64,000 bases of DNA from the NCBI RefSeq assembly GCF_002156705.1, contig NZ_CP019893.1:124001-188000 (forward strand), read 5' to 3'. The notes under the pieces are model-generated. The model worked only from the letters and a program-made list of their open reading frames with translations. It did no database searches and was not told where the DNA came from. Position 1 is the first letter of the stretch; each line of letters starts with the position of its first letter. A program made the translations under genes and the position numbers. Shown in pieces: positions 42,118 through 45,697 of the stretch. The stretch comes from Natrarchaeobaculum aegyptiacum (GTDB lineage Archaea > Halobacteriota > Halobacteria > Halobacteriales > Natrialbaceae).

Positions 42118-43035
42118 CTAGAGAATTCGCGTTCCGAACGCGCTCGCGGTGAGTTCGGCCGCGAGTGACGCGGTCTCGTTTCGCTCGTCGAGGATCGGAT
42201 TCACCTCGACGACGTCCATCGACCGGACGACGTCCTCGCGGTCGTTTCTGCTGGCGATCGTCTCGAGTGCCGCGTGGGCCTCGCGGTAGGTTACGCCGCC
42301 GCGGACGGGGGTACCGACACCGGGTGCGGCCCGTGGATCGAGCCAGTCGAGGTCGAGACTGAGGTGAACGCCGTCGGTGCCGTCGGTGGCGACGGCCAGT
42401 GCCTCCTCGACGACGCTTGTCACGCCGCGATCGTCGATGTCGGCCATCGTAAACGCCGTGACGTCGCTGTCCCGGAGCAGTTCGCGCTCCCGGTCGTCGA
42501 GGCTCCGGAGACCGACGTACGCAATCGACTCCTCACTCACGGTCGGCGCGTGCGCCCACGCCATGGACTCGGCTCCCTCACGACCAAGTACGGCACCGAG
42601 TGACATCCCGTGGACGTTCCCGCTGGGTGAGGTCTGGGGCGTGTTCAGGTCCGCGTGGGCGTCGAACCAGATCACTCCGATCGTCGCATCTCGAGCCGAG
42701 CCGTTCATCGACCCGATCGCAAGGGAATGGTCACCACCGAGGACGAGTGGGAAGGCACCCTCGGTGAGTGCGGCCGCGACTTCGTCGGCGAGACGAGTGC
42801 AGACCGACTCGATCTCCCGGAGGAACTTGGCGTTTCCACGGTCTGGTTGGCTCGCGTCCGGATCGCGTTCTTCGGCCCGCGGGACGAACAGATCGCCCGC
42901 GTCGACCGGTTCGACGCCCGCACGCTCGAGTTCGTCGCTCAGGCCAGCATAGCGGATCGCGGAGGGGCCCATGTCGACACCTCGCCGATTCGCGCCGAAG
43001 TCCATCGGGACGCCGATGATCCGAACGATCGTCAT
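42118..43035 (-). CDS. rocF: Arginase
   Basis: The 305-residue protein is of the ureohydrolase family. The manganese ligands lie in GGDHSLAIG, in WFDAHADLNTP, and in SLDLDWLDP near residue 225. The SGNVHGM segment after the DAHAD motif marks arginase rather than agmatinase. It cleaves arginine to ornithine and urea. ATG 43035 gives the standard length; the open frame goes on upstream, across the intergenic region and the antisense of the next gene, without family signal. It is transcribed divergently from the DtxR-type gene (115 bp gap). Confidence 0.92.
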   Translation of the reverse strand: MTIVRIIGVPMDFGANRRGVDMGPSAIRYAGLSDELERAGVEPVDAGDLFVPRAEERDPDASQPDRGNAKFLREIESVCTRLADEVAAALTEGAFPLVLGGDHSLAIGSMNGSARDATIGVIWFDAHADLNTPQTSPSGNVHGMSLGAVLGREGAESMAWAHAPTVSEESIAYVGLRSLDDRERELLRDSDVTAFTMADIDDRGVTSVVEEALAVATDGTDGVHLSLDLDWLDPRAAPGVGTPVRGGVTYREAHAALETIASRNDREDVVRSMDVVEVNPILDERNETASLAAELTASAFGTRIL

Positions 43036-43126
43036 CGACCAGGTGTACGAGGGCCACGGATTTGGTCGTACCGGGACGAACGACCGGGGGATCGAACTCG
43101 GCACCGTCCCAGCGACAGGTTTAGGG

Positions 43127-43140
43127 TTAGACGAATCTAA
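43127..43140. promoter_or_regulatory. Palindromic site TTAGA-N4-TCTAA before the DtxR-type gene
   Basis: TTAGACGAATCTAA is a palindrome with 5-bp arms and a 4-base centre. It lies 10-23 bases before ATG 43150, within the presumed promoter. The same pattern recurs before the ZIP transporter gene (43926-43939), which suggests autoregulation. Confidence 0.7.
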
Positions 43141-43149
43141 TTGCAGACG

Positions 43150-43836
43150 ATGATGCTGAGCGACGTGATGGAAGACTACCTCAAAGCCATCTACCAGCTC
43201 CAGCGAGAGCGTGACGACCGGATCAAGACCTCCGAAATCGCCGACGAGCTGGACGTCACGTCGCCGACGGTCACCAGCATGGTCGAGAAGCTCGAGGATC
43301 GCGAACTGGTCGACCGAGAAAAGTACCGCGGCGTCACCCTCACCGAGGAAGGCGAGACCGTCGCCCTCGAGGTGATCCGCCACCACCGACTGCTCGAGGC
43401 CTACCTCACCGAGCACCTCGATTACGACTGGTCGGAAGTCCACGACGAGGCCGACCGCCTCGAACACCACATCAGCGAGGACTTCGAGGCCCGCGTCGCG
43501 GACGTCCTCGGCGAGCCCGAGGTCGATCCCCACGGCTCGCCGATTCCAGGCGCCGACCTCGAGCCGCCGGAGCGAACCGACGACGATCCCGTCTCGGAGT
43601 TTGCCGAGGGTGACACTGTCGTCGTCGAGGAGGTCGCCGACCACGACGCAGAGATTCTCTCGTATCTCGCAGACCACGGCGTCGAGCCGGGAGTCGAACT
43701 CGAGATCGTGGAGGTCGCGCCGTTCGGAATGGTGACCGCTCGGCCAGCCGACTCGGAGGAAACGGTCTCGCTCCCGGAGACGGTCGCCCACCACGTCCGG
43801 GTCGGTCGCGTGAGTCCTGCTGAAGTCGAATCGTGA
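43150..43836 (+). CDS. DtxR-family metal-dependent transcriptional regulator
   Basis: The 228-residue protein has the N-terminal winged helix of the DtxR/MntR/SirR family (MEDYLKAIYQLQRE, then IADELDVTSPTVTSMVEKLEDREL). The metal-binding dimerisation domain (HHRLLEAYLTEHL, EADRLEHHISEDF) contains the expected Glu and His ligands, and a C-terminal SH3-like FeoA-type domain follows (residues about 150-225). It senses Mn or Fe and binds palindromic operators. ATG 43150 lies about 26 bases below a TATA-like TTTAG, consistent with a leaderless mRNA; TTG 43141 is unlikely. The transporter gene downstream shares its operator motif. Confidence 0.92.
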   Translation: MMLSDVMEDYLKAIYQLQRERDDRIKTSEIADELDVTSPTVTSMVEKLEDRELVDREKYRGVTLTEEGETVALEVIRHHRLLEAYLTEHLDYDWSEVHDEADRLEHHISEDFEARVADVLGEPEVDPHGSPIPGADLEPPERTDDDPVSEFAEGDTVVVEEVADHDAEILSYLADHGVEPGVELEIVEVAPFGMVTARPADSEETVSLPETVAHHVRVGRVSPAEVES

Positions 43837-43925
43837 GCAGACCGGCCCGTTGCAACGGGATTCTGGGATGTGAACCGAGGATTTAGACACGCTCTAGTGG
43901 CGTCTGTGGCTGGAAAGGTATAAGT

Positions 43926-43939
43926 TTAGACGCGTCTAA
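43926..43939. promoter_or_regulatory. Perfect palindrome TTAGACGCGTCTAA before the ZIP transporter
   Basis: This is a perfect 14-bp palindrome that fits TTAGA-N4-TCTAA. It lies just downstream of a TATA-like GGTATAAG (43917-43924), so binding would block transcription start. A weaker relative, TTAGACACGCTCTAG, is at 43883-43897. Confidence 0.75.
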
Positions 43940-43949
43940 TACACTCGTA

Positions 43950-43997
43950 ATGAGAACGCTATTCGATCTTCGACTGACGGTGGGTGGTGACGAATGA
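43950..43997 (+). CDS. 15-codon leader ORF before the ZIP transporter
   Basis: ATG 43950 opens a short frame (MRTLFDLRLTVGGDE) whose stop TGA (43995-43997) overlaps the ATG of the ZIP gene (ATGA). The putative TATA box centred about 28 bases upstream puts transcription start at or near this ATG, so translation of the small ORF could be leaderless and would be coupled to the transporter. A GGTGGTGA ribosome-binding sequence for the transporter lies inside it. Expression of the peptide is not shown. Confidence 0.5.
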   Translation: MRTLFDLRLTVGGDE

Positions 43998-45163: not shown

Positions 45164-45697
45164 ATGTCATCGATCGAATTGACCCCGAGTCAAAAAAAGA
45201 TTCTCCGCGCATTGACGAATCTCCACAAGGAGTCCGAAGACGCCATCAAAGGTGAAGACATCGCCGATCAGGTCGACCGCAACCCCGGGACGATTCGCAA
45301 TCAGATGCAGAGTCTCAAAGCACTGCAACTCGTAGAGGGTGTCCCCGGCCCCAAGGGTGGATACAAACCGACCGCGGCCGCCTACGAGGCCCTCGAGATC
45401 CAGCAGATGGACGACCCGGCGTCGGTCCCGATCCAGCACGAAGGCGAACCCGTCGAGGACGTCATCGTCGAGGAAATCGACCTCTCGAGCGTCCACCATC
45501 CGGAACTCTGCCGCGCAGAGATCCACCTGCAGGGAACGATCGGCTCGATCAGCGAGGACGATTCGGTCATCGTCGGTCCGACCCCGCTCTCGAAGCTCGT
45601 CGTCGAAGGGAGCGTCGACGGCAAGGACGACACGAACAACATCCTCATCTTGCGCATCGACGACATGGTCGCTCCCGCCGAAGAGCCCGAGCACTGA
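45164..45697 (+). CDS. Winged-helix transcriptional regulator (Rrf2-like, haloarchaeal)
   Basis: The 177-residue protein has an N-terminal winged helix (residues about 5-65; LTPSQKKILRALTNL, DIADQVDRNPGTIRNQM, then VPGPKGGYKPT as the wing). A C-terminal domain of about 90 residues follows with CRAEIHLQGTIGSI and NNILILRIDDM segments. It resembles haloarchaeal proteins annotated as Rrf2-type or generic HTH regulators. A small-molecule ligand is possible for the C-terminal domain. Target genes are unknown. The upstream region has an AT-rich TATA-like segment. Confidence 0.8.
   Translation: MSSIELTPSQKKILRALTNLHKESEDAIKGEDIADQVDRNPGTIRNQMQSLKALQLVEGVPGPKGGYKPTAAAYEALEIQQMDDPASVPIQHEGEPVEDVIVEEIDLSSVHHPELCRAEIHLQGTIGSISEDDSVIVGPTPLSKLVVEGSVDGKDDTNNILILRIDDMVAPAEEPEH

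Follow-up and report, generated by a model that had tools for sequence, protein, structure and literature searches.

A TTAGA-N4-TCTAA palindrome as the predicted operator of an MntR-type DtxR regulator and of metal-transport genes in Natrialbaceae-type haloarchaea

We analyzed a 64-kb window of the Natrarchaeobaculum aegyptiacum genome (genome positions 124001-188000; the genome is 3.93 Mb in one contig). The window carries genes for a DtxR-family regulator and a ZIP-family transporter, and an arginase gene divergent from the regulator (Table 1). An initial annotation had placed a TTAGA-N4-TCTAA palindrome (N4 site) before each of the first two genes. Both palindromes are there, and the window contains no other exact match. 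Operator 1 is located 10 nt 5' of the DtxR start codon. Operator 2, a perfect palindrome, has the TATA box on one side and the ZIP gene on the other. The annotation also listed a third, looser copy. Its position was correct, but its spacer has five bases instead of four, and this N5 form is conserved rather than a decayed copy.

Table 1. Features of the locus, with positions in the 64-kb window
Feature	Position	Strand	Evidence
Arginase gene (RocF), divergent from the DtxR gene	42118..43035	-	TIGR01229, 285.8 bits vs cut-off 227.6
TTTAGGG, probable TATA-like element of the DtxR promoter	43120..43126	+	Strong conservation directly 5' of the palindrome (consensus from 81 DtxR promoters)
Candidate operator 1, TTAGACGAATCTAA (N4)	43127..43140	+	73/90 orthologs with <=1 mismatch
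DtxR-family metalloregulator, MntR-type, with FeoA/SH3 domain, 228 aa	43150..43836	+	PF01325, PF02742, PF04023, all above cut-offs
Candidate distal operator, TTAGACACGCTCTAG (N5), upstream of the ZIP TATA box	43883..43897	+	Expected 0.01; 34/54 relatives with <=1 mismatch
BRE-like GGAAAG and TATA box GTATAAG (43918-43924), ZIP promoter	43912..43924	+	gtggaaAAg.tATAag conserved in 52 relatives
Candidate operator 2, TTAGACGCGTCTAA (N4), between TATA box and probable ZIP transcript start	43926..43939	+	52/54 relatives
Mini-ORF, MRTLFDLRLTVGGDE, probably leaderless, stop overlapping the ZIP start (ATGA)	43950..43997	+	Conserved ATG and frame
ZIP-family metal transporter, 311 aa	43994..44929	+	Pfam Zip, E 3.3e-6 (under cut-off); fold; motifs

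The regulator contains the winged helix-turn-helix and the metal-binding and dimerization domains of the DtxR/MntR family. Its best NCBIfam match is MntR (NF047407, 208.8 bits), under the cut-off of 350, and the protein is therefore MntR-like and outside the named equivalog. Among solved structures the top match is 5zr4, M. tuberculosis MntR, whose deposition describes it as a metal-dependent transcriptional regulator. It is followed by 8pvt, SloR, IdeR and ScaR. The ligand positions D9, H79, E83, H98, D102, E105 and H106 are all invariant in 90 orthologs. D9 and D102 are aligned to Met10 and Cys102 of the iron sensor IdeR, so the ligands are of the manganese type (Asp/Glu) rather than the iron type (Met10, Cys102). 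Arginase is a manganese enzyme, and its gene is the head-to-head neighbor of the DtxR gene in 75 of the 90 orthologous loci.

The ZIP protein is divergent in sequence. It scores 27 bits against the Pfam Zip cut-off of 35.1, and a sequence search against solved structures returned no match for it. We therefore searched with its predicted fold (pLDDT 77.8, pTM 0.79). The ten best matches in the PDB are BbZIP-type structures (probability 1.00, TM 0.55-0.77), and the next match has an E value of 0.06. The motifs HSxxEG and HNxxEG are invariant in 21 orthologs. The predicted fold and the presence of H(N/S)xxEG in two helices place the protein in the ZIP family. Downstream of the ZIP gene, positions 45164-45697 encode a winged-helix protein whose DNA-binding domain is of the HrcA type (PF03444). 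A probable ortholog of it closely follows the DtxR gene in genomes without the ZIP gene (L031, L032).

Exact N4 sites were absent from all 100 dinucleotide-preserving shuffles of the window, compared to two in the real sequence. The complete genome contains four exact sites and no copy of the reversed control pattern. Chance as the source of the palindromes was ruled out by the shuffles and the reversed controls. Three of the four genomic sites adjoin metal-homeostasis genes; one of them is located 54 nt 5' of a gene for a ZnuA-type binding protein, which itself follows a second DtxR gene. No metal gene was seen in the vicinity of the exact site at genome position 21387. When one mismatch is allowed, the genome has 11 sites versus 22 for the control. 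The lack of excess suggests that the signal there is carried by exact half-sites only. The looser pattern TTAG-N6-CTAA also showed no excess in this genome, with 15 copies versus 24 for the control.

The DtxR ortholog is present in 123 of 125 genomes of the Natrialbaceae-type family. We examined site conservation at 90 orthologous DtxR loci from Natrialbaceae-type haloarchaea; a second collection supplied named relatives, most of them Natrialbaceae. At the DtxR promoter the N4 site is exact in 42 loci, has at most one mismatch in 73 and at most two in 82, and its distance to the ATG is 23-26 nt in nearly all of the 90. At the ZIP promoter, a site with at most one mismatch is found in all but two of the 54 loci with a ZIP neighbor. 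Of the 36 loci that lack a usable ZIP neighbor, 27 keep the DtxR-promoter site at the same stringency. Beyond the family, this site is kept in Halorussus, Haloarchaeobius, Halostella, one Halobacterium species and Haloarcula relatives, and was sought and found absent in Halonotius, Natronomonas and Salinarchaeum. A few genera, including most Halovivax, Halonotius and Natronomonas, have kept the DtxR protein and show no N4 site.

The initial annotation had suggested asking whether the motif is randomly distributed. It is not. Exact N4 sites are four times commoner than the reversed control in the 125 genomes (257 versus 64). We assigned by hand the 79 exact sites of 34 genomes (G000-G033) to genes, and 63 of them precede five families linked to metals: the window DtxR ortholog (20), the ArsP_2 (PF11449) permease (19), the ZnuA-type importer (15), ZIP (8) and the DtxR paralog (1). 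Two more precede a multicopper oxidase gene, and 14 were assigned no target gene. The multicopper oxidase gene in locus L228 is preceded by a perfect TTAGACGCGTCTAA, and a ZIP-like gene is found about 1.7 kb downstream; the palindrome and its flanks are identical in locus L281 (genomes G025, G028). A search for ArsP_2 in the genome of the window itself gave no hit, but this test is weak, as the control genomes were equally silent. Judged from these genomes, the N4 switch that precedes metal-transport genes throughout Natrialbaceae-type haloarchaea is real, and of an already known kind of control.

The promoters suggest how the sites could work. The DtxR promoter reads TTTAGGG, N4 site and ATG (43150), and the ZIP promoter reads N5 site, GGAAAG, GTATAAG, N4 site and ATG (43950). 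Haloarchaeal transcripts are mostly leaderless, 72% of them in Haloferax (PMC4983044), so the N4 site is probably located at about -25 to -10. A dimer bound there would stop initiation, and the position between TATA box and start fits repression. In the mechanism that we propose, the DtxR protein at the operators would obstruct the basal factors or RNA polymerase both at the ZIP promoter and at the promoter of its own gene, and metal uptake would stop. When manganese falls, both promoters would be released. A ZnuA-type ABC importer elsewhere in the genome, and the ArsP_2 permease in relatives, would be under the same operator. At ZnuA-type genes the distance from the N4 site to the start codon is mostly 54-60 nt, which apparently puts the site 5' of the TATA box, and one simple mode of blocking may therefore not account for every target.

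A mini-ORF lies between operator 2 and the ZIP gene. Its ATG is found 9-10 nt 3' of the operator in 50 of 52 relatives, against a background of 0.011 per position. In all 50 of these the frame is open and ends between -6 and +8 nt relative to the ZIP start, whereas early stops interrupt the two other frames in 45 and 25 cases. The length of the mini-ORF varies by whole codons and the peptide sequence is not conserved, which argues for translational coupling rather than a functional peptide. The mini-ORF is very probably located at the very start of the ZIP transcript, which would begin at 43950, and we infer that translation of ZIP is coupled through it. Coupling by ATGA/TGATG is established in Haloferax (PMC6728339), and uORFs have been reported there (PMC4983044). 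Like the uORFs and termination-reinitiation cases of Haloferax volcanii (PMC4983044, PMC6728339), the ZIP leader combines a small 5' ORF, a stop/start overlap and an SD-like sequence inside the upstream ORF. Unlike them, the mini-ORF is kept in frame in about 50 species, at a promoter that is probably metal-regulated.

The genome encodes further DtxR-family proteins. One of them, an MntR-like paralog encoded at genome position 381896, shares 53% identity with the window regulator. It has a similar DNA-binding region and an N4-like site of its own. Its best NCBIfam match is also MntR. In the region around it (380500-386500, L105), this second MntR-like gene is followed by the ZnuA-type ABC importer; a mixed site, TTAGAATAGGCTAA, precedes the regulator (region position 1329), and the exact N4 site precedes the importer (2070). 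The same two-site layout is found at this cluster in many relatives' genomes. A short Idr-like protein (genome 340134) is present in 123 of 125 genomes. A related box of the classical, iron-type form, TTAGG-N4-CCTAA, is found in three copies (1022968-1023135, L128-L130) before a gene for an SBP_bac_6-type, probably iron, binding protein. It is also found at 3071443 (L133) and 386452 (L127), in one case before an ABC ATPase gene and in the other before a P-type ATPase gene. The occurrence of the TTAGG form before other genes offers a lead: manganese and iron control may be told apart by whether the fifth base of the half-site is A or G.

N5 sites are found at two kinds of promoters. At the ZIP promoter, the centers of the N5 and N4 sites are 41.5 or 42.5 bp apart in 32 of 54 relatives, approximately four turns of B-DNA. 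In eight others a weaker N5 match is located 37.5 bp from the N4 site. The window's own genome also has an N5 site, TTAGACTCGCTCTAA, at 2155624, 8 nt 5' of the ATG of a CDF (cation diffusion facilitator, PF01545) gene. This palindrome about 8 nt before the exporter gene is strongly conserved (L210:2025-2039; orthologs L213-L217 and L232-L248). The aligned CDF promoters read GGAAAAGACCCAAG[G/T]TTAGACTNNNTCTAA, with ACCCAAG at the position that the TATA box has in the ZIP promoter; GGAAAAGACCCAAG is conserved where the TATA box of the exporter promoters is expected. Over whole genomes the N5 pattern showed no clear excess over the control by eye, and its support is its conserved position. That N5 serves the DtxR paralog alone is disfavored, as the CDF site persists in genomes that have no second close homolog. 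Elsewhere, a mixed site, TTAGAAGGGGCTAA, precedes an MgtE-type divalent cation transporter gene (genome 2159651, L043), 4 kb from the CDF exporter. Another N5-type palindrome, TTAGATGCCGTCTAA, is located between genes for a PadR-like regulator and an inorganic pyrophosphatase in several genera (L211:1872-1886; also L214 and L222), and may be a PadR operator instead of a DtxR one.

Taken together, it is likely that TTAGA-N4-TCTAA is the operator of the window's MntR-type DtxR protein, which would mediate manganese-responsive repression of itself, ZIP and a ZnuA-type importer, and of an ArsP_2 permease in relatives. We infer the binding to the sites, manganese as the signal and the repressive sign. 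The proposal of the initial annotation, in which the regulator represses itself and the transporter when metal is plentiful, is supported by these results. Quite unlikely is an assignment of the N4 sites to another DtxR-family protein, the paralog or the Idr-like one, which would make the window regulator merely one more target. The resemblance of the paralog to the window protein and the N4 or near-N4 sites of its gene cluster are compatible with it, as is the near-universal presence of the Idr-like protein. However, many site-bearing genomes lack a second close homolog (for example G015, G017 and G024), Idr-type proteins are linked to iron in the literature (PMC11349517), and the window's own genome has the triple iron-type box described above. 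A system as proposed that answers to zinc or iron instead of manganese is unlikely. The ZIP and ZnuA families include zinc as well as manganese carriers, the weak family-level hits include ZupT and AztC, and iron and manganese sensing by DtxR proteins overlaps, with T. denticola TroR answering to both (PMC2628430). The ligand set of the regulator, the structural matches to 5zr4 and to the manganese regulators SloR and ScaR, MntR as the best NCBIfam match of both paralogs and the conserved arginase neighbor all argue for manganese.

The sign of control is a separate question. Bacillus MntR represses import and activates CDF efflux pumps (PMC9993123), the CDF gene with the N5 site has a poor TATA-like sequence, and at ZnuA-type genes the N4 site is upstream of the probable TATA box. 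These features would suit a positive action of N4, or a regulator that acts as activator or repressor depending on the site, which we nevertheless consider very unlikely: at DtxR and ZIP the N4 site comes immediately after the TATA element, and about 9-12 nt separate its end from the point where transcription probably starts. Binding at such a position usually blocks initiation. For N5 the matter differs. A metal-loaded repressor at an exporter gene would give control in the wrong direction, suggesting that N5 serves activation or is bound by another protein. We also considered a spacing code, in which one manganese regulator would read N4 as a signal to repress import and N5 as a second mode that activates the weak-TATA CDF exporter and, together with N4 four helical turns away, clamps the ZIP TATA/BRE from both sides. 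This is doubtful. If it is true, bifunctional archaeal manganese control would be decided by one spacer base pair.

An autoregulated MntR/SirR-like repressor of metal uptake is the best reading of the regulator. Halobacterium salinarum SirR is a Mn(II)-dependent repressor (PMC3600143). Like the window protein it is a haloarchaeal DtxR-family member, and it represses manganese uptake genes and is autoregulated. Its known targets are an ABC importer and not the ZIP gene found here. Bacillus subtilis MntR (PMC9993123) is also a manganese sensor that represses import, with a link to CDF exporters that here would run through the N5 site. It differs in having no FeoA/SH3 domain, another operator and a bacterial promoter, and CDF activation is here a possibility only. 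The corynebacterial DtxR box, TTAGGTTAG(G/C)CTAACCTAA (PMC1382209), shares the half-site family TTAG(G/A), and its first 14 bases read TTAGG-N4-NCTAA. That box consists of overlapping iron half-sites over 19 bp, whereas the sites described here are single 14-bp palindromes whose half-sites carry A and T at position 5, and they do not match the corynebacterial-type operator TTAGGTTAGSCTAACCTAA.

Leyn and Rodionov (2015, cited in PMC11349517 and PMC11218638) reportedly described, by comparative genomics, the archaeal DtxR regulons FetR, MntR and ZntR, with palindromic boxes before ZIP and TroA-type importers. The system described here resembles these regulons in its DtxR protein, its palindromic boxes and its ZIP and TroA-type targets. 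The initial annotation had called the motif and its target possibly uncharacterized. This may hold for the exact motif and the lineage only, but archaeal DtxR regulons including ZIP genes had been predicted before. With regulons of this kind already described, the N5 sites and the mini-ORF may be the new details.

The analysis provides, from raw sequence alone, a defined operator and a small predicted regulon for metal homeostasis in a large haloarchaeal family. The N5 sites and the mini-ORF lead to hypotheses on how an archaeal repressor acts beside the TATA box. The N5 sites also raise the possibility that exporters and importers are under shared control by one protein.
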